64,000 nucleotides of DNA from Microbacterium testaceum (GTDB lineage Bacteria; Actinomycetota; Actinomycetes; Actinomycetales; Microbacteriaceae), in NCBI RefSeq assembly GCF_029761935.1, contig NZ_CP121699.1, forward strand, positions 1,674,001 through 1,738,000, in the 5' to 3' direction. Both the position numbers and the translations under genes were made by a program. Under the pieces are notes generated by a model. It was not told where the DNA came from, made no database searches, and saw nothing but the letters and a program-made list of their open reading frames with translations. Shown here in pieces: positions 11,006-64,000 of the stretch. The number at the start of each line of letters is the position of its first letter. The first letter of the stretch is position 1.

Positions 11006-12370
11006 ACCCCCCTCGGCGTCGACCTCGGCCGTCCGATACTGCCGGGAGAGCGTCCGATACGAACGCGTGGAGAAAGCCAGCGCACCCGCGACCACCATCA
11101 CGACGCCCGAGACGGCGAACACCAGCGCGATGCCGCGGGACTCCCCCTCACCGAGCAGCCAGCCCCACGTCGCGCGGCCGTCGTCTGCGTCCATGTACGG
11201 GATGATCAGGAATTGCGCGATCGGCGCGATGAGGAACGACGTCACGGGCGCCGCAGCCGACTCGAACGCCGCGGCGAAACCGAAGACGCGCCCCTGGGTC
11301 TCGAAGGGGACGACCTTCTGGATGACCGTCTGCTCCGCCGCCTCGACCGGCGGGATGAGGGCCATGTAGACCCAAATACCTATCGCGTACAGCCACCACC
11401 ATTCGCGCAGGGTGAAGAGCGCCCCGAGGGCCCCCATCGCGATGACGATCCAGAGCATCGTGCGGATGGGGTTCTTTCCGAGGCCGAACTTCGCGACAAG
11501 ACCACCGCCGACGATGAATCCGGTCGCGGTCACCCCGAGGACGATGCCCCAGATCTGCACGTCGAACATCTCGAGGCCGTACGGATCCATGAGCGCCATG
11601 TAGACGCCGCCGATGAGGTTGTTGAACGTCGAGAAGACGATGAGGGCGAACAGGCCCGGGGCGCGGCGCACGGCCCGGACCGCCCCGCGGAGATCGACGA
11701 CGGGACCGGGAGCCGTGCCGGCGGCGGGGCGCTCCTCGGGGATGCGGATCGTCAACAGGTGGGCGAGCGCGAGGACGGTCAGCGCCAGCGCGATGGCGAG
11801 CGTCCATCCCATGCCGAGGAACCCGACCGACAGCCCGCTGAACACGCTCGTCACGACGAACGCGAGCCCCTGCACGGTGCCGACCAGGCCGTTCGCGTTG
11901 GCGTGACGCTCGACGGGGACGAGGAGCGTCACGGTCGTCGACAGAGCGATGTTGCGAAGGTTCTCGATCACGGCCCCGGCGAGGATGATGCCCGAGAAGA
12001 GCCAGAACCACGGTCCGCCCAGGTCGAGGAGCGCGGCCTCGGGAAACGCCAGCCAGAGCGCCCCCGCTAGAAGGAACGCCACGAGCGTCACGAACCCCGA
12101 GACCACCATGACCCGGTGCTTGCGATGGCGATCGACGAGCGATCCGAACACCATCGCGAACACCGCGAGGAGCAACATGTACGCACCGCCGACGATGCCA
12201 GTGGCGAGGACGGAGCGGGTCTCGAGATAGACCCAGAACGTGAGGGCGAACCAGAGGAAGCTCGTGGTCACGTTGGCGGCGGCGGTGTTGACGAGCACCG
12301 CGAGAAAGGTGCGGCGCCCGGACGACGCGACCGCGTCGACCGGGGCGACGGGGGCCGGACTCTCGGACAT
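10997..12370 (-). CDS. MFS transporter
   Basis: A 457-aa major facilitator protein of about twelve hydrophobic segments. It carries the family loop between helices 2 and 3 (FGSLVDRHRKHRVMVVSG) and a charged central loop near residue 210 (PEERPAAGTAPGPVVDLRG). It resembles the drug/metabolite efflux branch; the substrate cannot be told from sequence. The ATG lies 6 bases after TACCGT in a PafBC-like promoter, so damage-induced expression is possible. Confidence 0.9.
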   Translation of the reverse strand: MSESPAPVAPVDAVASSGRRTFLAVLVNTAAANVTTSFLWFALTFWVYLETRSVLATGIVGGAYMLLLAVFAMVFGSLVDRHRKHRVMVVSGFVTLVAFLLAGALWLAFPEAALLDLGGPWFWLFSGIILAGAVIENLRNIALSTTVTLLVPVERHANANGLVGTVQGLAFVVTSVFSGLSVGFLGMGWTLAIALALTVLALAHLLTIRIPEERPAAGTAPGPVVDLRGAVRAVRRAPGLFALIVFSTFNNLIGGVYMALMDPYGLEMFDVQIWGIVLGVTATGFIVGGGLVAKFGLGKNPIRTMLWIVIAMGALGALFTLREWWWLYAIGIWVYMALIPPVEAAEQTVIQKVVPFETQGRVFGFAAAFESAAAPVTSFLIAPIAQFLIIPYMDADDGRATWGWLLGEGESRGIALVFAVSGVVMVVAGALAFSTRSYRTLSRQYRTAEVDAEGGAV

Positions 12371-12376
12371 AGCGCC

Positions 12377-12398
12377 ACGGTAGACCGGGGGTCCGACA
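12377..12398 (-). promoter_or_regulatory. PafBC-type promoter of the MFS gene
   Basis: On the minus strand, TGTCGGAC (12398-12391), exactly 8 bases, TACCGT (12382-12377), then 6 bases to the ATG at 12370. Fits tTGTCRGtg-N8-TAnnnT. Confidence 0.5.
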
Positions 12399-12434
12399 TT
12401 GACCAGGGCCCGGTCGAACGACGGATCCGCGGGG

Positions 12435-15400
12435 TCAGTCGATGAGGCTGCGGATGTCCGCCGCCGTCAGGCGGGTGCCGCCACCGAACGTCTCGCCCTC
12501 ACCGCCGTCGAGCACGCGGGAGAAGAGCTCGGCCTTCGTCTCGCGCAGGGTCACCACCTTCTGCTCGATGGTGTCGGCGGCCACGAGCCGGTACACGATC
12601 ACGGGGCGGGTCTGCCCGATACGATGCGCGCGGTCGATGGCCTGGTCTTCGACCGCGGGGTTCCACCACGGGTCGAGGAGTACCACGTAGTCCGCCTCCA
12701 CGAGATTGAGGCCCACTCCGCCGGCTTTGAGAGAGATGAAGAACGCCGGGTCGTCGCCCTCGCGGAAGCGGTCGATCTCGACCTGTCGGTGCGTGGTGGC
12801 ACCGTCGAGGTAGCCGGACGGAAGACCCGCCTCGGTGCATCTGTCTCGAGCCGCGCGAAGGAAGCGCGTGAACTGGCTGAGGACGAGGACACGGTGTCCC
12901 TCGGCAGCGGCCTCGGTCACGAGTTCGACCAGGGCGTCGAGTTTGGCGGACGGGGCCTCTCCCTCGTCGACCAACGCCGGATCGAGAGCGAGCTGGCGCA
13001 GCATCGTCAGCGAGCGGAAGATCGCGAAGCGATTGCCCTCGGCATCGTCGAGCAGGCCCAGGAGGCGTTGACGCTCGCGATGGAAGCGCCGGTCGTACAG
13101 CTTGCGATGCGTCGGGTGCAGGGTCACCTCGACCACGGTCTCCTGCTTCGAGGGGAGCTCGGACGCGACGAGTTCTTTCGTCCGTCGCAACAGGAACGGG
13201 CGGATCCGTCGACGGAGCAGGTCGAGGCGCGCGGAATCGGAGTGCTTCTCGATGGGCGTGCGGTACATCGCGGTGAAGGACTCGCGAGTGCCCAGAAGCC
13301 CCGGCGCCACGAGAGACATGAGGGCCCAGAGTTCGAGGAGGTTGTTCTCCATCGGCGTGCCCGTGATGACGAGCGTGAAAGGCACCGAGAGAGAGCGCGC
13401 CGCGCGGTAGCCCCGCGAGGAGGGGTTCTTGATCTGCTGTGCCTCGTCGAGCACGAGTCCCGACCACTCGACCTCGGCGTACTGCTCCTGCTCGAGACGG
13501 AAGAGCGCATAACTCGTGACCACCACGTGCGCACCGGCGGCGACCTCGGAGATGGGGGTGGAGCGTCGCGCCTGCGTCGAGGCGATGGTCGCCACTCGCA
13601 GTCCCGGAGCGAATGCGGCGCACTCGCGAGCCCAGTTGCCCACGACACTCGTCGGCGCCACGATCAGGAACGGGGCCATCTCGGAGTCGGACTCGCGGGC
13701 GACCTCCATCATCGCGATCGCCTGCACGGTCTTGCCGAGGCCCATGTCGTCGGCGAGGACGCCCCCGAGCCCCTGCGTGCGGAGGAAGTGCAGCCAGTCC
13801 AGGCCCGAGCGCTGGTAGTCGCGCAGCGTGGCGCGCAGACCCGCGGGGGATGCGACAGGGGCGAGGGCGGCTTCGTCGGTGAGACCACGCACGCGCAGCC
13901 ACCACTCCGCCTCTTGCGCCGCGAGGAGGCCCAGCTCGGACAGGTCGTCCCAGAGACCGACGTTGTAGCGGTTGAGCTTCAACCCGCCCTCCGGGCGATC
14001 GGCGAGTGTCCGCGCCTCGTCGATGACCGCGCGGAGGCGGTCGAAGGCGGGGGTGTCCAGTCGCACGTAGGACCCGTCGTCCAGGAAGAGAGCCCGGTCG
14101 CCCACGACCAGTGCGGTGTAGAGCGCGGAGAAGTCGACCTCGGTCTCGCCCACCGTGACGCGCGCGTGCAGGTCGAACCAGTCGCTGCCGTCGTCGTCAC
14201 CGGTACGAAGCTCCACGGCAGCCGGCTCGGCCGCCGCGCGATAGGGCGCGGCGCCGTCGGCGACGTTCACTCGGACGTGAGCCAGAGCCTGCATTCGCGG
14301 CACGCCCTCGGCGACGAAGATCGCCGCGTCGGCGGGAGTCCACGCCCGAGGCGGGGTGGCACCCGAGGGGAAAGGTTGCGGAACACCGACGCCGAGCTCG
14401 GTCGCGATGGCCGCCACGGCGTCCCACACCGCGGACTCGTGCGCCTCGTCGCGACGGCCGTTGGTGGACGACCGGTCCCACCGGACGGTGATGGACGCAC
14501 GACCGCCGCGATGGTCGAGGTCGACCTCGAGGACCGGACGTGGCGGAGGCGGCAGGTCGACCGTGCCCCTCGGGGACACCACGGGGGCCTCGAGCTGCAA
14601 GCGCGGAAGATAGTCGCGCAGGAAGACCTCGGAACCCCCGTCGACGGCGAGGGCGCCCGGTCGCGCCAGCAGCCCGCGGACGGCACCGGTCACCGGCGTC
14701 GCCAGGCGCGCGAGGGTGAACCTCTCGTCGTCGCCGTCGCGATCCGCCACGAAAGCGACGGCGACGGCAGGGTCGCCCACCACCCACGACGGCAGCGACG
14801 CGACGTCGTCGTCGACGCCCTCGAGGATCCCCCTCACGTGCAGGGCCGAGCCGCGTCGGTCGACGGCGACCGCAGCCGTCACCTCGGGCTCGAGAATCCG
14901 CACCGGGTGATTCGCACCCGAGGCCGCCACGAGTGGCACCCCGGCCGCGACGACGGCTTCGAGCTGCATCCAGAGGGAATGCGGGGGGACGGCGGAGAGC
15001 GGCATCCATTCGTCGGAGAGGAACGCGCCGTTCCCGGAGCGGCCGAGGCGGCCCAGGCTGTCGAGGGCGGCGCGCGCCCGCGGGTCGGCGGAGAGGAGCG
15101 GCAGCCCCGACCATCCGGCGCGCCCCTTGATCCAGGTACCGCGCGTCCCCCGCATGCCGGGGCGGGCGGTGAGCGTCAGCGCGGTGCTGCGTCCGTGGCC
15201 TCCACCGCGCCGGATGGCGAGGAAGAGGCACAGGTCGACGGCCTGCTCGTCGTCGACCCGGGCGCCGACCGTGAGCAATTCGTCGAGGGTGCGCTGCCAC
15301 TCGGGGCGCGGCGGCCGGCCGGCCGAGATCATCCGGTCGAAGAGCACCACCGCTGCGGCGCACGAATGCTCGCACTCGGGACCGCGGCCGCACGAGCACC

Positions 15401-54729: not shown

Positions 54730-56085
54730 TCAGGCGACCACGCGCTCCGGCGCGGGTGCCTCGTCGTCGAACTCCACCTCGGGCGGGCGGCGGCGGAACC
54801 CACGGGTCAGCACCGCGAGCCACACGATGCCCACGCCGATCCACACGAGACCGACCGTGAGCGCCAGCGCCGACAGGCTGAACCACAGCCACGCGGTGAG
54901 CGCGAAGCCGAGGGCGGGCAGCACGCCGAAGCGCAGCACGGCCGCTGCTCCCCGACGACGCTCGTCGACGAGGAAGTGCTTGATCACCGACAAGTTGACG
55001 AGCGAGAACGCGGCGAGGGCTCCGAAGCTGATGAGGGATGCCACCGTGTTCAGGTCTGCGAAGAGCGCGGCCAGCGAGACCACGCCGACGAAGATCGCCG
55101 CACCGATCGGCGTCTGATAGCGCCGGCTCAGTCGGGCGAAGAAGCGCGGCAGCACGCCGTCGCGCCCCATCGCGAAGAGGATGCGCGAGACGCTCGCCTG
55201 CGAGGCGAGGGCCGCCGCGATGCACCCGGCGATGTACGCGACGAGGAAGAAGACCTCGAGCCAGCGCCCGGCGGCGACCTCCATGATCTGGTTGGCCGCG
55301 GCATCCGGATTCTCGATGTCGGCCACGTTCGGGATCACCAGAGTGGACACGTAGGCGATCACGGTGAAGATGAGTCCGCCGATGATCGTGGTGAGGATGA
55401 TCGCGCGAGGCACGGTGCGCTCGGCGTCGCGGGCCTCTTCGGAGAGGGTCGAGATCGCGTCGAAACCGAGGAACGACAGGGCGAGCATCGCGGCTCCCGC
55501 GAGCAGGCCCGGGAAGGTGAGGCCCGCGTCGTAGAGCGGCTGCAGCAGCGAAACACCGGGGTTCTGCGCGACGTGCAGCACGGCGCACACGACGAAGACG
55601 GCCGCGAACACCAGCTGCAGGCCGACCAGGACGAGATTGGCGTTCCGCACAACCGTGATACCGACGATGTTGAGACCCGTGATGAGCAGCACGCCGGCGA
55701 GGGCGAACACCCACGGCGGGATGCCGGGGAACTGCGCGTTGAGGTAGATGCCCATCAGCACGTAGTTGATGAGCGGGAGCAGCAGGTAGTCGATCATGAG
55801 CGACCAGCCGGTGAGGAAGCCGACGGTGCCGCCGAACGCGCGCCGGGCGTAGGTGTAGGCGCTGCCCGCGCGCGGGAACGCCTTGACGAGGGCGGCGTAG
55901 CTGAACGCGGTGAACAGCATCGCCACGAGGGTGACGAGGTAGGCGGTCGGCACGTGACCGCCGGTGGTGACGGCGACGAGGCCGTAGGTGGTGAACACGG
56001 TGAGGGGCACCATGTACGCCAAGCCGAAGATGACGAGAGAGGGGACTCCCATGACTCGCCGCAGCGAGGTGTCGGATGAGGACAT
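54730..56085 (-). CDS. APC-family amino acid/amine permease
   Basis: A 451-aa permease with about twelve TM helices of the APC fold. The first helix is VPSLVIFGLAYMVPLTVFTT; conserved FPRAGSAYTYARRAFGG follows. The C-terminus is cytosolic and acidic. It probably imports the amine, amide or amino-alcohol substrate of the neighbouring catabolic genes. It is downstream of the amidohydrolase gene (31-bp gap) in one operon. Ribosome site AGGAAA precedes the ATG. Confidence 0.93.
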   Translation of the reverse strand: MSSSDTSLRRVMGVPSLVIFGLAYMVPLTVFTTYGLVAVTTGGHVPTAYLVTLVAMLFTAFSYAALVKAFPRAGSAYTYARRAFGGTVGFLTGWSLMIDYLLLPLINYVLMGIYLNAQFPGIPPWVFALAGVLLITGLNIVGITVVRNANLVLVGLQLVFAAVFVVCAVLHVAQNPGVSLLQPLYDAGLTFPGLLAGAAMLALSFLGFDAISTLSEEARDAERTVPRAIILTTIIGGLIFTVIAYVSTLVIPNVADIENPDAAANQIMEVAAGRWLEVFFLVAYIAGCIAAALASQASVSRILFAMGRDGVLPRFFARLSRRYQTPIGAAIFVGVVSLAALFADLNTVASLISFGALAAFSLVNLSVIKHFLVDERRRGAAAVLRFGVLPALGFALTAWLWFSLSALALTVGLVWIGVGIVWLAVLTRGFRRRPPEVEFDDEAPAPERVVA

Positions 56086-56116
56086 GCGGTTTCCTGTTCG
56101 GGTCGGAAAGAGCGGT

Positions 56117-57688
56117 TCAGAAGGTGCGGATGCCGCGTCGCCAGGTGCCCCGGATTCGGGCATCGGCGATGCGGTCGGCGGGGCCGCGGCGCACGTCGCG
56201 GTCGAGCCAGACGAGGTCGGCGCGCATGCCTGGACGCAGGGTCCCGCGGGTGGCGTGATCGCCGGCCTGGTGGGCCACGCCGCTCGTGGCGGCGTCGATG
56301 GCTTCGGAGACGGTGAGACGTTCGTCGGGCTGCCAGCCCCCGGCCGGCTGACCGTCGGGGTCTTGACGGGTGACGGCGGTGCGCAGGCCGAGCAGCACGT
56401 CGGGTGAGGTGACGGGCCAGTCGCTGCCGAAACTGAGGCGGGCTCCCGCGTCGTGGGCCGCGCGCATGCGGTACTGCCGCTCGCGGAGGGGGCCGAGGCG
56501 CGGCAGCGTCAACTCGGTCATGACCGCGTCGGCCATCGCCCACTGCGGTTGGAAGCAGAACGTCACGTCGAGGTCGGCGAGCCGCGGCAGGTCGACGGGG
56601 TCGATCACCTGCGCGTGCGCGATGGTGAACCGCCGACCGCGGCGCACGCTCTCGCGGATCCCCTCGGCGGCGTCGAGGGCGGCGCGGACGGCCGCGTCGC
56701 CGATCGCGTGCAGGTGCACATCGAAACCGGCGGCGTCGCACGCGGCGACCGCGTCGACGAGCTGATCGGGATCCCAGTTGGGAAGTCCCCGTGTTCGAGC
56801 GTCGTGGTAGCACTCGAGCAGGTGGGCCGTACGGTTCTCGACGATGCCGTCGACGAAGAACTTCACCGTGCGGCAGGTGAGCCCGGGCTCGCCCCGGACG
56901 ATCGCCGCGATCCGAACGAGCTCGTCGAGATGGTCGGGCCACCGTGCCGGATCGGCCCGCAGGGCCAGATCGACGTCGACCCGCAGGCGTCCGGACCGCG
57001 CCGCGGCGATCCAGGCCGGAACGTCGTGCGTCTCGGTCCACGCTTCCTGCACCCAGGCGATTCCGTGGGCCGCGAGAACTTCGGTGGCCGCGGCGAGCGC
57101 CTCGACGTCGTCGCGCATCGAGGGGCGGGGGGCGCGGTTGAGGACCAGGTCGATCGCCGGACGCTCGACGAGGGTTCCCGACGGGGATCCGTCGGCTCGG
57201 CGCACGAGTCGTCCGAGCTCGGGGTCGGGGGTGTCGGCATCCACTCCCGCTTCTCGCAGCGCCGCGGTGTTGACCCAGGCGGTGTGGTAATCCCACGCGT
57301 GCAGCACGACCGGGCGGTCGGGAACGGCCGCGTCGAGCCAGCGCGCGTCGAACATCCCGCCGGGGACGACGGTGGCGTCGTAGCTTCCGCCGATGAGCCA
57401 GGGGGCGTCGCTGCGCGCGCCCCACGCGCGGACGCGCTCGACGATCTCGTCGACGCTGCCGGCGTCGCGCAGGGCAGGGCCGGTGCGCTCTCGACCGGCG
57501 AGCAGCGGGTGCGCGTGACCATCGCCGAAAGCGGGCAGCAGCAGCCCGCCCTCGAGGTCGATGTGCTCGGCGTCGTCGGGCAGCGGATGCCGAGCCTCGG
57601 CCACCGCACCGTCGACGACGACGAGTCGATCGACGTCGGCTTCGTGCCCGTCGATCCGAATCGTTCCGCCCGTGAAGACGATCGCCAT
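56117..57688 (-). CDS. Amidohydrolase family protein (YtcJ-like, Amidohydro_3)
   Basis: A 523-aa metal-dependent hydrolase. The metal-binding HxH lies in PAFGDGHAHPLLAG. VKFFVDGIVENRTAHL carries the bridging region. His residues follow in FDVHLHAIGDAA and FTIAHAQVIDPVD, and the catalytic Asp in LSFGSDWPVTSPDV. Family members deformylate N-substituted formamides or hydrolyse other amides. It heads a two-gene operon with the APC permease. The ATG lies 30 bp downstream of a palindromic operator. Confidence 0.9.
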   Translation of the reverse strand: MAIVFTGGTIRIDGHEADVDRLVVVDGAVAEARHPLPDDAEHIDLEGGLLLPAFGDGHAHPLLAGRERTGPALRDAGSVDEIVERVRAWGARSDAPWLIGGSYDATVVPGGMFDARWLDAAVPDRPVVLHAWDYHTAWVNTAALREAGVDADTPDPELGRLVRRADGSPSGTLVERPAIDLVLNRAPRPSMRDDVEALAAATEVLAAHGIAWVQEAWTETHDVPAWIAAARSGRLRVDVDLALRADPARWPDHLDELVRIAAIVRGEPGLTCRTVKFFVDGIVENRTAHLLECYHDARTRGLPNWDPDQLVDAVAACDAAGFDVHLHAIGDAAVRAALDAAEGIRESVRRGRRFTIAHAQVIDPVDLPRLADLDVTFCFQPQWAMADAVMTELTLPRLGPLRERQYRMRAAHDAGARLSFGSDWPVTSPDVLLGLRTAVTRQDPDGQPAGGWQPDERLTVSEAIDAATSGVAHQAGDHATRGTLRPGMRADLVWLDRDVRRGPADRIADARIRGTWRRGIRTF

Positions 57689-57717
57689 GGAGACTCCCTC
57701 GTGTCCTGCGCTGCGAG

Positions 57718-57736
57718 AAACATACAGCGTAGGTTT
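57718..57736. promoter_or_regulatory. TetR-type operator, site 1 (amidohydrolase operon)
   Basis: A 19-bp palindrome with 7 of 9 base pairs symmetric (half-sites AAAC-TAC and GTA-GTTT). It sits 30 bp upstream of the amidohydrolase start and covers its likely -10 (TATGTT on the minus strand). It matches site 2 at 60101-60119 in 17 of 19 positions. The TetR gene lies about 120 bp away. Confidence 0.7.
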
Positions 57737-57859
57737 AAGGAACGCTACGGCTTCACCGTCATCGGCCGGACGAGTTTCGTCAGGTCGTCACCGAGGTCTT
57801 ACACGCCCGAAACACACACCATCGCGTAGCGTGGGCAGACCCGACCGAAAGGCTCCGCC

Positions 57860-58489
57860 GTGGCCCGGCCGTCCCAGCCCAAGCTCTCGCGCGAGGCGAT
57901 CGCCCGCGCCGCCCTCGCCCTCGTCGACCGCGACGGGACCGACGGCGCGAGCATCCGCCGGGTCGCCGACCGCCTCAAGGTGCACCCGACCTCGCTCTAC
58001 AACCACGTCCCCAACCTCGCCGCGCTCATCGAGGACGTGCGAGCGCTGGTCTCCTCGCGCATCGACTCGTCGTTCCTGCGGGAGCGCGAATGGGAGGAGG
58101 GGCTGGCGCTGTGGGCCCGGTCGTACCGCGACGCCTTCCGCCGGCATCCGAAGACGATCCCCCTGCTCATGTCGCACAGCTCGTCGACGCCGCTGCTGAT
58201 GTCGCAGTACGAGGACTTCGCCATCGCCGCAGAGCGCGCGGGGTGGACGAGCGACGACATCCTGCCCCTGCTCACGGCGTTCGAATCGTTCATCCTCGGC
58301 AGCGTGCTCGACATGAGCGGCCCGTCGGTGATGTTCGACCCCACCGGACAAGAGGCGGACGTGCCGCGCTTCGCCGCGGCCTATGCCACTCTCGAGCGCC
58401 ACGACCCGGCCGATCCGGTCGCCACGCGGGCATTCGAACTCGGCCTCTCGCTGCTGATCGCGGGAGCCCGCCCCCGCCCTGCCGCGTGA
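57860..58489 (+). CDS. TetR/AcrR family transcriptional regulator
   Basis: A 209-aa repressor. The HTH is DGASIRRVADRLKVHPTSLY, then NHVPNLAALIEDVRALVSSR; the C-terminal domain is ligand-binding (residues ~75-205). It is divergent from the amidohydrolase-permease operon. Two near-identical palindromes upstream of that operon and of the amidase operon make it the likely regulator of both. The GTG start follows GAAAGG; a -10 TAGCGT lies about 30 bases upstream, so a short leader is present. Confidence 0.92.
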   Translation: MARPSQPKLSREAIARAALALVDRDGTDGASIRRVADRLKVHPTSLYNHVPNLAALIEDVRALVSSRIDSSFLREREWEEGLALWARSYRDAFRRHPKTIPLLMSHSSSTPLLMSQYEDFAIAAERAGWTSDDILPLLTAFESFILGSVLDMSGPSVMFDPTGQEADVPRFAAAYATLERHDPADPVATRAFELGLSLLIAGARPRPAA

Positions 58490-58500
58490 GCCCGACTCAC
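58486..58500. terminator. Hairpin containing both convergent stop codons
   Basis: GTGAG (58486-58490) pairs with CTCAC (58496-58500). Its arms hold the TetR TGA and the DUF1206 stop. Short stem. Confidence 0.3.
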
Positions 58501-59312
58501 ATGCGCGCGTAGCGCGCGCGAGCGAAACAGAACAGGCCGTACACGACGAGCCCGGCGCCCACGAGCCAGAGCACGATCTGACCGAAGGGCAGCCCCGCCA
58601 GCGAGCGCAGCGCCGCGTCGAGCCCGCCGGCCGCGTTCGGGTCGTGCGCGAACGCCGCGACCAGGAAGAGGATCCCCGCGACGCCCACCGCGATGCCCTT
58701 GGCGACGTAGCCCACCATGCCGAAGGTCCGGATGCCGCGTCCCGCCGTCCCGCCGGGGCTCGAGATGTTCTTCATGAACGCCTTGGTGACGCCGCGGACG
58801 ACGAAGGCGACACCGATGACGGCCACCGCCACGCCGATGATCACGAGGAGCACGACTCCGGCGGGCGTCGCCATCAGCTGGGCGCTCAGGGTGCGCGTCT
58901 GCTCCCCCGAGTCGGAGCGGCCGCCCGAGACGACGGTGAAAGCGGTGACGGCGATCGCCCCGTAGGCGACGGCGGTCCCCACGTCCTTGGCGCGGTGCGC
59001 CCAGCGCTTCTTGCCGTCCGGGTCGCGCTCGGCGACGGCTTCGGCGACCTGCCAGACGGCGAGGGCGGCGAGGCCGATCACGATGACCCACAGCAGCAGC
59101 ATCCCCGCGGGAGCCTGCGCGACCTGCCCGAGCGCCCCGCTCTGGTCGGCGCTCTCACCGCCGCTGCCGGTGGCGATCGAGATCGCGATCACCCCGATGA
59201 GCAGGTGCAGCAGGCCCAGCACCACGTAGCCGACGCGCGCCGCCACGCGGAACGCGGTGGAGTCCTGCGCTTTGTCGGCGGCGGCGGAAGCAGAGGCGGA
59301 GGCGGAAGTCAT
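58497..59312 (-). CDS. DUF1206 domain membrane protein
   Basis: A 271-aa membrane protein of six hydrophobic helices in three pairs, the DUF1206 arrangement (AARVGYVVLGLLHLLIGVIA, VGTAVAYGAIAVTAFTVVSG, GMVGYVAKGIAVGVAGILFL). The N-terminus is Ser/Ala-rich. Function unknown. The ATG lies 6 bases after TATCGT. It interrupts the catabolic gene set, and nothing links it to that set. Confidence 0.9.
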   Translation of the reverse strand: MTSASASASAAADKAQDSTAFRVAARVGYVVLGLLHLLIGVIAISIATGSGGESADQSGALGQVAQAPAGMLLLWVIVIGLAALAVWQVAEAVAERDPDGKKRWAHRAKDVGTAVAYGAIAVTAFTVVSGGRSDSGEQTRTLSAQLMATPAGVVLLVIIGVAVAVIGVAFVVRGVTKAFMKNISSPGGTAGRGIRTFGMVGYVAKGIAVGVAGILFLVAAFAHDPNAAGGLDAALRSLAGLPFGQIVLWLVGAGLVVYGLFCFARARYARM

Positions 59313-59328
59313 CCGGGCACGATAGCGC

Positions 59329-60009
59329 TCACGCGGACGCGCCGACCACCCGTTGCGCGCGACGCACTCGCCACACTTCGACGAGAGCCCACACCAAGGT
59401 CGACACCGCCACACCCTCCAGGAACCCCGCCGTCACGTCGGAGAGCCAGTGCGCGTGGAGGTACGTGCGACTCCACATCATCAGCAGCACCCACACCGCA
59501 CCGGCCGCCCAGACCCACCCGCGGCGCAGGATGAGAGCCAGGGTGATCGCGATGGTGGTCGCCACGGCGGTGTGCCCCGAGGGGAACGAGGTCGCCTGGG
59601 TCTCGGCGAGAGAATCGGACGGTCGGGCGCGGGCGATCATGGACGCGAGCGGAGCGCCGATGAGCACGACGAGCGCGATCGCCCCCGCGACGTTGAGGGC
59701 ATCCCACGGCCGCTTCACCAGGAGGAAGACGATCGTGGTCGAGATGCCGATGACGATCATGCCGATCGTTCCGCCGACGGTGGCCGGGATCCACGCGATG
59801 ATCACCGCCACGGGATTCGCCAGCGCGGCCATCGCGTCATCCCACCACTGGTCGAAGGCCAACGGAGCGCCGCCGTCGAGGTCCACGGCCACGCGCAGCG
59901 CCACGAAAAGCACCGTCGCGACCACGCCCACGATCAGGGCGACGGGGCGACGCGCGTCGACCCTCGGTCGATCGGGCAGGATCGCTGGTTCGTCGGTGGT
60001 GGCATCCAT
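59329..60009 (-). CDS. PAP2-family phosphatase, membrane-bound
   Basis: A 226-aa integral membrane phosphatase. The three PAP2 motifs are present: ARARPSD, SFPSGHTAVATT and SRTYLHAHWLSDVTAG. It probably dephosphorylates a lipid phosphate such as undecaprenyl pyrophosphate or phosphatidate. A weak -10 (CACGAT) lies 6 bases before the ATG. Divergent from the amidase gene. Confidence 0.93.
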   Translation of the reverse strand: MDATTDEPAILPDRPRVDARRPVALIVGVVATVLFVALRVAVDLDGGAPLAFDQWWDDAMAALANPVAVIIAWIPATVGGTIGMIVIGISTTIVFLLVKRPWDALNVAGAIALVVLIGAPLASMIARARPSDSLAETQATSFPSGHTAVATTIAITLALILRRGWVWAAGAVWVLLMMWSRTYLHAHWLSDVTAGFLEGVAVSTLVWALVEVWRVRRAQRVVGASA

Positions 60010-60100
60010 TCGGGAATCGTGTCAGGAAGGACGCGACGCGGGCTAGCCATTGCCCCGCGCACGCGAAACACTTCTGGCGAAGATTCTTCTCGAAACCTCA

Positions 60101-60119
60101 AAACAAACAGTGTAGGTTT
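60101..60119. promoter_or_regulatory. TetR-type operator, site 2 (amidase operon)
   Basis: A 19-bp palindrome differing from site 1 at two positions. It covers the -10 box TAGGTT (60113-60118) of the amidase gene, which lies 7 bases before the ATG, so bound repressor would block transcription. Further AAACCT (60093-60098) upstream adds symmetry with AGGTTT. Confidence 0.7.
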
Positions 60120-60125
60120 TCCGCC

Positions 60126-62132
60126 ATGACCACCGAGGCCCTCACCGTCGTCGACGCCGACATCGACCGCCTGCGTGCAGCACTCGAGGTCGGCGAGCTC
60201 ACCAGCGTCGAGCTCGTGGCCCGCTACCTCAACCGCATCGCGGCCTACGACCGCTCCGGCATCCGGCTCAACAGCGTGCCCGTGCTCGACTCCCGCGCGT
60301 TCGCCGCGGCCCGCGCCTCCGACCTGCGCCGCGCACAGGGGCGCACGCTCGGCCCCCTCGACGGCATCCCCTTCACCGCGAAGGACAGCTACCGCGTCGA
60401 GGGCCTGCCCGTGGCATCCGGGTCCCCCGCCTTCCGCGACCTGATCGCCGGCGACGACGCCTTCGCCATCGAGCGCCTGCGCGCAGCCGGCGCCATATTC
60501 CTGGGGCTCACCAACATGCCGCCCATGGCCGCGGGCGGCATGCAGCGCGGGGTGTACGGCCGCGCCGAATCCCCCTACAACGGCGACTACCTGTCATCCG
60601 CCTTCGGCTCCGGCTCGTCCAACGGATCGGGCACCGCCACCGCGGCGAGCTTCTGCGCGTTCGGACTCGGCGAAGAGACGTGGTCGTCGGGTCGAGCCCC
60701 CGCCTCGCACAACGCCCTCGTCGCCTACACGCCCTCCCGCGGGGTGATCTCGGTGCGCGGCAACTGGCCGCTCGTCCCGACGATGGACGTCGTCGTCCCC
60801 CACACGCGCACGATCGGCGACCTGCAGCACGTGCTCGACGCGGTCGTCGCCGACGACGCCGAGACCGAGGGCGACCTCTGGCGCACGCAGTCGTTCATCG
60901 ACCTCCCGCGCCCGTCCGAGGTGCGTCCCGCCTCGTTCGCCGCACTCGAGCCGCTGCCGCTCGCGGGGCTGCGCCTCGCCGTACCGCGCATCTACGTCAA
61001 CGGCGACCCGGACAACGCCTCGCCCATCGTCACGCGCGACAGCGTGATGGCGCTCTGGAACGACCTGCGCGCCGACCTCGAGGCCGCCGGCGCCGAGGTC
61101 GTCGAGACGGACTTCCCCGCGGTCGATCGCTACGAGAAGCTGCACGCGGGCGACGAGGACTTCCTCGATCGCGGATTCGTCACGCGCGCCTTCCTCGACG
61201 ACGAGGTCGGCGACCTCGCGGTCTGGGCGATGGACACCTTCCTCCGCACCAACGGCGACGCGAACCTGCCCCGTCTCGCCGACGCCGAGGCGGCCCTGAT
61301 CTTCCCGCACCCGCCGGGGGCGCTCCCCGACCGCTACGGCATCTGGCACTACGACATCTCGTACGACATCGGCGAGTACGTCGCCCGCGCGCAGGAGTGG
61401 GAGCCCGACTGGCGCGCCGTCGCCAGCCTCGAGCACGGCCTGCGCGGTCTCGAGCACACCCGCCGCGTCGACTTCGAGGAGTGGATGGATGCCGAGGGCC
61501 TCGACGCCGTGATCTTCCCCACGCAGTCCGACGTCGGTCCCGCCGACGCCGACGTGAACCCGGCCTCGGCCGACATCGCGTGGCGCAACGGCGTGTGGGT
61601 CTCCAACGGCAACCTGGTTCCGCGTCACCTCGGCATCCCCACTGTCACGGTGCCGATGGGGACGATGGCCGACACCCGGATGCCGGTGGGTCTGACCCTC
61701 GCCGGTCCCGCCTACAGCGACACGCGCCTCGTGCAACTGGCCCAGGCGATCACCGCCCTCGGCGAGCGCCGCACGACGCCTCCGCGCACCCCCGCCCTGC
61801 CGGATGAGGCGGCCTTCGCCGAGCCCCGCCCCGCGGCCGAGGGCGAGCTGTCGGTCACCGTCGACGAGGTCTCGCGCGACGGCGGGCGCGTGACCGTCTC
61901 GGCCACCGTCAGCGGAGGCGTCGCGGTCGATCACGCCCTCTTCGTCGACGGCGTGCGCGTTCCCGCGCGACTCGAGAACGGCCGGGTCACCGCCGACGCC
62001 GCCCCAGAGCCGTCCGGCGAGCCCGTGAGCGAATGGATCGCCCCCTACGGCCCGCTGGTCGTGGTCGTCGTGCGCGATGCCGGGGGTGCCGTCGCGGGCG
62101 CCGTCGCCACGGCATCCGACTCTCCCCTGTGA
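60126..62132 (+). CDS. Amidase (amidase signature family) with C-terminal extension
   Basis: A 668-aa amidase-signature enzyme. The catalytic Lys lies in IPFTAKDSYRVEG (~90), and the cis-Ser/Ser pair in the Ser/Gly-rich stretch GSGSSNGSGTATAASFC (~158-174). The family average is about 470-500 aa; the extra ~120 residues at the end (from about 545) look like a beta-rich domain (LSVTVDEVSRDGGRVTVSAT) of unknown role. It hydrolyses a linear amide. Leaderless start from an operator-covered promoter; followed after 26 bases by the kinase/PLP gene. Confidence 0.93.
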   Translation: MTTEALTVVDADIDRLRAALEVGELTSVELVARYLNRIAAYDRSGIRLNSVPVLDSRAFAAARASDLRRAQGRTLGPLDGIPFTAKDSYRVEGLPVASGSPAFRDLIAGDDAFAIERLRAAGAIFLGLTNMPPMAAGGMQRGVYGRAESPYNGDYLSSAFGSGSSNGSGTATAASFCAFGLGEETWSSGRAPASHNALVAYTPSRGVISVRGNWPLVPTMDVVVPHTRTIGDLQHVLDAVVADDAETEGDLWRTQSFIDLPRPSEVRPASFAALEPLPLAGLRLAVPRIYVNGDPDNASPIVTRDSVMALWNDLRADLEAAGAEVVETDFPAVDRYEKLHAGDEDFLDRGFVTRAFLDDEVGDLAVWAMDTFLRTNGDANLPRLADAEAALIFPHPPGALPDRYGIWHYDISYDIGEYVARAQEWEPDWRAVASLEHGLRGLEHTRRVDFEEWMDAEGLDAVIFPTQSDVGPADADVNPASADIAWRNGVWVSNGNLVPRHLGIPTVTVPMGTMADTRMPVGLTLAGPAYSDTRLVQLAQAITALGERRTTPPRTPALPDEAAFAEPRPAAEGELSVTVDEVSRDGGRVTVSATVSGGVAVDHALFVDGVRVPARLENGRVTADAAPEPSGEPVSEWIAPYGPLVVVVVRDAGGAVAGAVATASDSPL

Positions 62133-62158
62133 CACCCGAATCACCCGAGGAACACACC

Positions 62159-64000
62159 GTGACCGAGACCGCCCCGACCCCCGTCTTCGACTACTTCAGC
62201 CAGGTCGACCTGCCCACCCCGACGCTCTCCGACGACGAGGTGCAGCGTCTGTTCGCCGACACGTTCGGCGTCGAGATCGACGTGCAGGCGCTCGGCAGCC
62301 AGCAGGACCAGAACTTCCGCGTCTTCGCCCGGGGCTCGACCGACCCTCTCGGCGTACTGAAGCTCAGCAACCCCGTCTTCAGCGAGGCCGAGATCGAGAT
62401 GCAGGATGCCGCGGCGGCTCTCGTCGCCGAGCGGAGCCCCCACGTGCGTATCCCGCGCATCGTCGAGGGGCCGCGCGGCGCGATGTCGACGTGGTGGGAG
62501 TCGAGCCAGGGCAGCATCCACGCACGCGTGATCGAGAACATCGCCGGGCGCACGCTCATGGGTTCGGGCTACCTCTCCCCCGCCGTCGTCGAGGGGATGG
62601 GCGCCCTGTCGGGGGCGGTGAGCCTGTCGCTCGCCGACTTCACCCACCCCGCGAGCGGCCGGGTGCTGCAGTGGGACCTCCGCCACGCCGGGCGCGTCAT
62701 CGACACCCTGCTCCCGCTCGAACCGGATGCCGAGGTGCGAGACGTCGTGCAGCGCGCCGCCGACGCCGCCCGCGCGGCCCTCGCCCCCGTGCAGGACGCC
62801 CTGCCCGTGCAGGCCGGACACTTCGACGTCACCGACGACAACGTGCTGCCCGCCCCCGGAGAGACGGTGCCCGACGCGGTCATCGACTTCGGCGACGTGT
62901 GCGCGTCGTGGCGCGTGGGCGAGATCGCCGTGACCGTGTCGTCGGTACTGCACCACGACGGCGCGACCCCCGAGAGCGCCTTCCCCGCCATCCGCGCGTT
63001 CGACCGCCTGCGCGACCTGAGCGACGACGAGCTCACGGCGCTCTGGCCGCTCGTCATCCTCCGCGGCGCGGTGCTCGTGCTCAGCGGGCGCGCGCAGGTG
63101 CGCCTCGACGACGAGAACGCCTACGCCACCGTCGCGCTCGACCGCGAGTTCCGGATCCTGGTGCAGGCGGCATCCGTTCCGATCCCCGTGATCACCGCCG
63201 CGACCCGGGCGGCGCTGGGGCGTTCCCGCGCCGAAGCGCCCGCGTGGACCGGCACTTCGGTGCTGTCGCTCGGCCACCACGTCGAGCTCGACGCCTCGAC
63301 GGAGTCACCGCTGAACGACGCGGGCGCCTGGCTCGACGCCGCCACCCTCGACGACGCGGCTCTCGCCGCCCTCGACGCGGGCGCCGACGTCGTGACCGTG
63401 CCCGCGTGGCGCGCGCGGTTGACCGGAACGACGGACCCGCTTCCCTCGACGCCCGAGACCGTGCCGACGGACGTGCTCGTGTGGCTCGCGTCACCGGTCA
63501 CCCTCGATCGGAGCGAGCGCAACGAGCACGGGTCGCAGATCGTGACGACGGATGCCGGGACCCTGGCGATCGGCGGAGTGCCCGCCGCCGCGGCATCCGG
63601 AACCCTTCCGGCGCGCACCCGTCTGTCGATGCGCCGCTCGCTCGGCGGACTCGTCCCCCCGACGCGCACCACGCCCGCCCTCGCCGCCGCCTGGCGCGAG
63701 GTGGCCGGCGACCCCGGCGCCGTGATCGGCGCGCCCGCCGCGGCCCCGGTCGACGACGACGTGCTCGAGCGACGCCACGAGGTGCTCGCCGAGGTGCAGG
63801 AGCACTACTACGCGGCCCCTCCCCGCATCGAGCGCGGGTGGCGCGAACACCTGATCGACGTGAACGGCCGGGTCTACCTCGACATGGTCAACAACGTCGC
63901 CTCGGTCGGCCACGCGCACCCCCGAGTGGTCGAAGCCGGCTCCCGCCAGATGCACCTGCTGAACACCAACTCGCGCTTCCATTACCGCGCGATCACCGAC
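62159..64000 (+). CDS. Fused APH-type kinase and class III PLP enzyme (partial)
   Basis: Open to the right edge, 614 codons visible. Residues ~20-330 are an aminoglycoside-phosphotransferase-like kinase: Brenner motif HFDVTDDN at 221-228 and DFGDV at 243-247 are intact. Residues ~330-530 are a linker domain I do not recognise. From ~555 a class III aminotransferase fold begins (WREHLIDVNGRVYLDMVNN, HAHPRVVEAGSRQM). Fusions of this kind phosphorylate an amino alcohol and then eliminate phosphate and ammonia, as in phosphoethanolamine or phosphohydroxylysine lyases. GTG start; downstream of the amidase, so same operon. Confidence 0.88.
   Translation, partial: MTETAPTPVFDYFSQVDLPTPTLSDDEVQRLFADTFGVEIDVQALGSQQDQNFRVFARGSTDPLGVLKLSNPVFSEAEIEMQDAAAALVAERSPHVRIPRIVEGPRGAMSTWWESSQGSIHARVIENIAGRTLMGSGYLSPAVVEGMGALSGAVSLSLADFTHPASGRVLQWDLRHAGRVIDTLLPLEPDAEVRDVVQRAADAARAALAPVQDALPVQAGHFDVTDDNVLPAPGETVPDAVIDFGDVCASWRVGEIAVTVSSVLHHDGATPESAFPAIRAFDRLRDLSDDELTALWPLVILRGAVLVLSGRAQVRLDDENAYATVALDREFRILVQAASVPIPVITAATRAALGRSRAEAPAWTGTSVLSLGHHVELDASTESPLNDAGAWLDAATLDDAALAALDAGADVVTVPAWRARLTGTTDPLPSTPETVPTDVLVWLASPVTLDRSERNEHGSQIVTTDAGTLAIGGVPAAAASGTLPARTRLSMRRSLGGLVPPTRTTPALAAAWREVAGDPGAVIGAPAAAPVDDDVLERRHEVLAEVQEHYYAAPPRIERGWREHLIDVNGRVYLDMVNNVASVGHAHPRVVEAGSRQMHLLNTNSRFHYRAITD

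Follow-up and report, generated by a model that had tools for sequence, protein, structure and literature searches.

A shared 19-bp operator and a predicted TetR regulon joining two putative catabolic operons of Microbacterium testaceum

The operators and their distribution

In a stretch of 64,000 nucleotides of the Microbacterium testaceum genome (the window; assembly GCF_029761935.1, contig NZ_CP121699.1, positions 1,674,001 to 1,738,000, forward strand), two similar 19-bp palindromes precede two operons of putative catabolic genes, and the gene of a TetR family regulator lies between them. The questions raised by this locus are whether one regulator governs both operons, how such an arrangement came about, and which compound the encoded enzymes would break down. 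The first operon, on the minus strand, encodes an amidohydrolase of family 3 (AH3; 56117-57688; PF07969 profile match, motifs read) and an amino acid/amine permease of the APC family (54730-56085; family profile match). The second, on the plus strand, encodes a long AguY-type amidase of 668 residues (60126-62132; PRK06565 family, by profile and PDB match), an APH-type kinase fused to a class III pyridoxal phosphate (PLP) phospholyase of the PRK06149 type (KinLyase; 62159-64000, continuing past the window edge to L006:13033) and, just outside the window, a PAD_porph deiminase (L006:13061-14086; profile match). The explanation favoured here, with fairly high confidence, is that the regulator, TetR-A, represses both operons, having acquired the amidase operon through loss of a sister regulator, TetR-B, and a change of one operator half-site, and that the operons likely serve the breakdown of a guanidino compound; binding, repression and substrates are predictions from sequence comparison.

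Operator 1 (AAACATACAGCGTAGGTTT, 57718-57736; AAACCTACGCTGTATGTTT when read towards the AH3-APC operon) and operator 2 (AAACAAACAGTGTAGGTTT, 60101-60119), the 3' end of which is 6 bases from the ATG of the amidase gene, share 17 of their 19 bases, with seven of nine pairs palindromic in each; the coordinates and counts of the initial annotation were thus confirmed. With up to one mismatch allowed, the pattern matches the window at two places, both exact, compared with 0.01 matches on average over 100 shuffled sequences. A search of the host genome (3.38 Mb; one contig of 3,380,022 bases), as the initial annotation had proposed, finds exact matches only at operators 1 and 2. Allowing up to two mismatches yields 12 sites, the two exact ones and ten with exactly two mismatches, and the ten are near chance level because the reversed control already gives six.

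Among 366 Microbacterium genomes searched with the exact pattern and with TetR, the pattern occurs at 52 places in 42 genomes (four for the reversed control), and all 42 encode either TetR-A or a paralogue with 66-74% identity, TetR-B. A TetR match at E<=1e-30 is found in 44 genomes, 43 of them at no less than 66% identity; 42 of these 43 carry the exact site and the other (G352) carries a one-mismatch site before a KinLyase gene, and genome G315 has only a 36% TetR relative and no exact site. The 52 sites are located upstream of AH3 (16), amidase (33), KinLyase (2) or an APC remnant (1), always within 130 bases, and two more amidase sites (L037, L038) come from other genera of the Microbacteriaceae. 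The 46 loci analysed further are L006, L037, L038 and L105-L147; gene calls were greedy in several of the locus surveys, in which some genes were missed. Named amidase loci numbered 542, of which the best 80 were retained (the available stretch being short in some); this TetR and the exact site occur together in 17 of the 80, and in the other 63 neither is present in the available stretch. Eight of the 17 overlap the genus set; the nine new loci belong to Agreia, Leucobacter, Mycolicibacterium and Rhodococcus/Rhodococcoides.

Conservation is concentrated on the operator. In alignments of the 16 AH3 sites, the nine amidase sites of loci without TetR-B, and 13 of the 26 amidase sites of loci with TetR-B, pairwise identity is 0.974-0.993 within the operator, 0.667-0.735 over the 20 bases upstream and 0.384-0.445 over bases 21-40 upstream. 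The AH3 sites have values of 0.993 (operator), 0.735 (-20 to -1), 0.445 (-40 to -21) and 0.675 (-60 to -41), and the TetR-B-less amidase sites have values of 0.974, 0.735 (-20 to -1) and 0.386 (-40 to -21). Two flanks are fairly conserved as well: the -60 to -41 interval of the AH3 sites just given and the 20 bases downstream of the operator in TetR-B loci (0.888). An origin of the operators by chance or as a repeat artefact was rejected on the shuffles, the genome counts, the reversed controls and the stronger conservation of the operators than of their flanks.

The TetR-A gene (57860-58489, plus strand, 209 amino acids) encodes a helix-turn-helix of the TetR type (PF00440, 22.7 bits, just under the cut-off of 24), over which TetR structures align, and a TetR_C_1 sensor domain (PF02909, 41.1 bits; cut-off 21). 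A search of the genome with the TetR-A sequence returns a single match, itself, at E<=1e-20 (15 of 21 candidates scored). Both operons are preceded by a common operator, and the genome encodes only one matching TetR; a TetR regulon joining them is well supported by comparison, and binding of TetR-A to both sites is predicted. The single regulon of the initial annotation stands in this respect, on the co-occurrence of sites and TetR and on the placement of the sites, and is modified in another: the ancestral arrangement probably did not have a single TetR. The gene order also stands as first described, with the qualification that two genes, DUF1206 and PAP2, intervene between the TetR-A gene and operator 2.

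The initial annotation had each operator covering a likely -10 box. Plausible hexamers can be read in both: TAGGTT (60113-60118, plus strand) in operator 2 ends 8 bases 5' of the amidase ATG, the spacing of a leaderless mRNA, and TATGTT (57724-57719) in operator 1 is oriented towards the amidohydrolase gene. A scan of 57600-60200 with the sigma-70 consensus, which predicted no promoter, argues the other way. At a distance of 3 bases on the upstream side of the AH3 operator, another element is conserved: CGTAGCGTTC (minus strand, 57740-57749) is present in 15 of 16 aligned AH3 loci, L107 deviating, and may be part of a promoter or an additional half-site.

Sister regulators and the operator half-site

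The regulators that accompany the operator form two groups. TetR-A proteins have 85-100% identity to the regulator of the window and are encoded beside AH3-APC and sometimes KinLyase; TetR-B proteins, with 66-74% identity, are encoded beside amidase-KinLyase-deiminase or amidase-deiminase. The host genome has TetR-A only. The reading frames of all 48 TetR genes (22 A, 26 B) in the 46 loci run uninterrupted to a C-terminus resembling that of the window protein; some TetR-B genes and that of G352 had been flagged with one TGA, and the possibility that they are broken was rejected because in all 48 no stop occurs before approximately query residue 207, where the protein normally ends. The right half of the amidase operator is GTAGGTTT in nine of nine loci without TetR-B, as it is in operator 2, and GTATGTTT in 26 of 26 loci with TetR-B. 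The 26 loci represent 25 genomes, two of the loci being in G376, and a one-mismatch site of L136, 864 bases from the amidase gene, was excluded; absence of TetR-B means absence from the locus and, for the nine, from the genome, each of which has one TetR match. The AH3 operators have AAACCTAC, the complement of GTAGGTTT, in 16 of 16 cases, and 15 of the 16 are identical throughout to operator 1, the sixteenth being one base off. Operators of both regulators fit a common frame, AAACnnACnnnGTnnGTTT. The stretch VHPTSLYNHV of TetR-A, which aligns with TetR and is presumably part of the recognition helix, reads VNP(A/T)SLYNHV in TetR-B, with an H or N specific to the paralogue.

The initial annotation regarded the operator pair as a duplicated operator of one regulator; that history was rejected because most related amidase loci carry a TetR gene of their own, which is missing here. 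A comparison with genome G543, reported to be of the same species, illustrates the difference. Identity between the two genomes is 97.5-98.5% in the sequence flanking the regulator gap on either side and 93.6% at a greater distance. The interval between PAP2 and operator 2 comprises approximately 1.6 kb with the TetR-B gene in G543 and 33 unaligned bases in the window, and no remnant of TetR-B was seen in the alignment of this interval; the site reads GTATG in G543 and GTAGG in the window. G543 also lacks AH3 and most of APC, and that gap ends beside operator 1. Two genomes so similar around the gap, of which only G543 has the sister repressor and which also differ in the corresponding half-site, provide a natural experiment on how regulons merge.

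In the favoured explanation, the amidase operon is part of a sister module, which in other loci has a repressor of its own, TetR-B, encoded divergently or just upstream. In the lineage of the window, TetR-B would have been lost, and the right half of the operator is GTAGGTTT in place of GTATGTTT, presumably having changed from the latter to the former. Since GTAGGTTT is the half-site that marks TetR-A operators, TetR-A would then have taken over the amidase operon, so as to bind both 19-bp sites and repress the AH3-permease and amidase-kinase/phospholyase-deiminase operons jointly until a predicted inducer relieves repression. TetR-A resembles TetR family repressors with nearby operators in its TetR_C_1 sensor domain and in having a palindromic operator between divergent genes, and differs in that it is predicted to serve two operons following the loss of its sister.

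A fairly unlikely alternative is that no takeover occurred: both regulators always bound both operators, GTAGG and GTATG are neutral, linked variants, and TetR-B was lost without effect. The common operator frame of TetR-A and TetR-B is consistent with this alternative, as is the presence of AAACCTAC as the left half in two Mycolicibacterium TetR-B loci (L164, L165), by which CCTAC is not exclusive to TetR-A. The nine loci without TetR-B, moreover, look by eye like one junction type, and therefore the coupling of regulator and half-site may rest on a single original event and exchange of linked DNA. Against the alternative, the regulator state matches the half-site in 35 of 35 amidase sites, and the two groups of regulators differ by the paralogue-specific residue noted above. 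On a tree of amidases from 30 chosen loci, the regulator/half-site state requires three changes (bootstrap 3-4), and two of the changes are forced by well-supported branches. Read from the sequence as -10 elements, TAGGTT does not improve on TATGTT, so promoter strength does not account for the change. These data are read here as one original loss of TetR-B that was probably followed by exchange of linked DNA, rather than as many independent origins.

Several further observations weigh against the regulon or against takeover. The TetR protein with 55% identity (G192, L039) has neither the site nor such an operon within 20 kb. More distant TetR proteins (35-41%) encoded beside APC and AH3 are accompanied by related one-mismatch sites at only some of their loci. 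A Herbiconiux locus (L160) has amidase, KinLyase and deiminase genes with neither TetR nor site in the locus, and three named TetR-B loci (L162, L166, L167) have the amidase and the site with no KinLyase or deiminase in the available stretch. At L120, the KinLyase site of a genome with TetR-A lacks the GTAGG half. In the genus survey, eight first-look TetR candidates were scored per genome, so weaker relatives may escape.

Predicted enzymes and substrates

With 841.9 bits, the amidase clears the PRK06565 cut-off of 575, and among PDB structures it matches 6te4 best (E 3.2e-208); the motifs TAKDS, GSGSSNGSG and ETWSSGR, which are taken here to supply the Ser-Ser-Lys catalytic residues, are intact. 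Matches to the amidase fall into two length classes, ending at approximately residues 549-571 (short forms) and 650-668 (long forms). The window amidase is a long form, and the long forms have approximately 110 C-terminal residues beyond the Pfam Amidase match (61800-62132 in the window). The 6te4 structure is that of Tse8, an antibacterial effector of the same family that, according to PMC12283126, evolved from AguY; unlike it, the window amidase is encoded in a regulon that looks catabolic, a context not suggestive of an effector. The same source describes family amidases encoded beside aguA, named AguY, that convert N-carbamoylputrescine to putrescine, with kinetics measured for enzymes from Shewanella oneidensis and Microterricola gilva. 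The window amidase, which likewise shares its locus with an aguA-type gene, is by sequence a long relative of AguY, and the N-carbamoylputrescine activity is that of its homologs (PMC12283126).

The description of the second gene as a kinase fused to a PLP lyase in the initial annotation was borne out. KinLyase (956 amino acids as searched, with the start taken one codon later) scores 1197.9 bits against PRK06149 (equivalog cut-off 973) and has intact motifs that are presumed to belong to the active sites of the kinase (HFDVTDDN, VIDFGD) and to contain the PLP lysine (AKSIGGG). Its PLP domain is closest to the ethanolamine-phosphate phospho-lyase 6tor (E 8.6e-103) and the phospholyase 5g4i (E 6.3e-73), the latter presumably from Arthrobacter. 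These two best PDB matches make a plain aminotransferase less likely; in contrast to 6tor and 5g4i, the PLP domain of KinLyase is fused to a kinase, and its phospholyase role is predicted.

In a table of 40 KinLyase proteins (pieces of fewer than 700 residues dropped, such as L120), 26 are encoded with an amidase, seven after AH3-APC, two directly behind a TetR-A operator and five elsewhere; the nine behind AH3-APC or an operator form one clade (support 100/100). This distribution, in which KinLyase accompanies AH3-APC in some genomes and the amidase in others, supports the functional link between the two operons that had been proposed. The link is not obligatory, because KinLyase is absent (E<=1e-100) from eight of the 46 genomes searched, all eight having a TetR-B/amidase locus, and two further genomes have only a 45% relative elsewhere. 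At L120 (4898-7709, genome G485), the KinLyase gene is in two overlapping pieces behind its own operator, possibly owing to a frameshift.

The deiminase, encoded two genes downstream of the amidase, scores 329.5 bits against PAD_porph, is closest to agmatine deiminases, aligns with 1vkp and has the motifs WMRDMGPT, EGGGLHVDG, NGHVD and GGIHC, which cover the catalytic cysteine and the guanidine site. It scores 252.5 bits against the AguA equivalog model TIGR03380, below the cut-off of 381.8; this cut-off fails to separate it from ordinary AguA, because three deiminases encoded beside short AguY score 247-259 bits as well. The combination of a PAD_porph deiminase with a PRK06565-type amidase resembles the AguA-AguY pathway, which is also known from an actinomycete, Microterricola gilva, and differs from it in the C-terminal extension of the amidase, in the kinase/phospholyase fusion encoded between the two genes, and in the attached TetR and operator (PMC12283126). 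In the literature covered, subscription journals being mostly outside the search, no description was found of a gene set of deiminase, AguY-type amidase and kinase/phospholyase.

The regulon would likely serve to import and degrade a guanidino compound similar to agmatine. In this scheme, the deiminase would convert guanidine to ureide, the amidase would convert ureide to amine, and KinLyase would phosphorylate an amino alcohol and remove phosphate and ammonia to leave an aldehyde, in this presumed order. A strong rival, somewhat short of an even chance, is plain catabolism of agmatine to putrescine by the deiminase and the amidase, with KinLyase serving another substrate. It accords with the established AguA-AguY pairing (PMC12283126), with the occurrence of deiminase and amidase without KinLyase in several genomes, and with the similar AguA scores of the deiminases beside short AguY. 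Against it, KinLyase is near the amidase in 26 of its 40 occurrences, and two genomes (G213, G484) hold a separate deiminase-short AguY pair in addition to a TetR-B locus, which suggests that the substrates are not identical. Genome G312 likewise combines a separate short AguY pair with a TetR-B locus, which there has no deiminase of its own, and seven Microbacterium genomes examined (L236-L242) hold such a pair without the operator. On a FastTree tree of deiminases from 40 chosen loci, those of 16 window-type Microbacteriaceae loci group together as a clade (support 100), separately from the neighbours of short AguY. This clade does not include every deiminase encoded beside a long amidase, and the long/short label requires five changes, one of them forced by well-supported branches. 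The substrate of the window-type loci may thus be related, perhaps not identical, to that of the short AguY pairs.

A hydroxyagmatine-like guanidino amino alcohol was considered because such a substrate would use every enzyme, through deimination, ureide hydrolysis, phosphorylation and phospholysis. In this route, which would be undescribed, the deiminase and the long AguY would convert hydroxyagmatine via its carbamoyl form to hydroxyputrescine, and KinLyase would convert the latter to 4-aminobutanal; AH3 and the permease would supply the substrate from conjugates or from outside, under two sister TetR regulators of which one took over both operons. Hydroxyagmatine is reported to occur in barley phenolamides (PMC12412163), and the titles and abstract openings surveyed contain nothing decisive on kinase/phospholyase fusions or on catabolism of 2-hydroxyputrescine. 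The route as a whole is judged improbable, and plain agmatine catabolism with KinLyase at another step is more likely.

The initial annotation proposed import of N-acyl or formyl amino alcohols, cleavage by both hydrolases, and then phosphorylation and elimination of the amino alcohol so released; this proposal is unlikely. In its favour, KinLyase is of the phospholyase type, and AH3, a member of the broad family PF07969, is clustered with APC and KinLyase in seven loci that show neither amidase nor deiminase, so that its product could feed KinLyase. Against it, the third operon gene is of the agmatine deiminase type and the amidase belongs to the AguY family, with N-carbamoylputrescine activity measured in two homologs (PMC12283126); neither points to an N-acyl substrate for that operon. 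Because of these two genes, an agmatine-like guanidino/ureido route, possibly with hydroxyagmatine, appears to fit the amidase operon better. The deiminase, AguY-type amidase and kinase/phospholyase together point to a pathway with testable substrates in actinobacteria.

Neighbouring genes and related loci

The DUF1206 gene (58497-59312) and the PAP2 gene (59329-60009), both identified by profile match and both on the minus strand between the TetR-A gene and operator 2, are at most candidate members of the regulon.

Additional exact sites occur behind the amidase gene in L164 (Mycolicibacterium; 11046 and 11164) and L170 (Rhodococcus; 11078), upstream of genes that include an AH3-like gene and a KinLyase gene. 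In L162 and L167 (Mycolicibacterium; approximately 11264-13538), the amidase of the TetR-B locus is followed by a 447-residue protein in place of KinLyase and deiminase; in L162 this protein has no NCBIfam match and is accompanied by a methyltransferase-like gene. Six loci (L044, L148-L152) encode TetR proteins of approximately 37-40% identity beside APC and AH3-like genes and have one-mismatch sites with GAAC/GTTC inner halves, perhaps representing a wider family of such switches.

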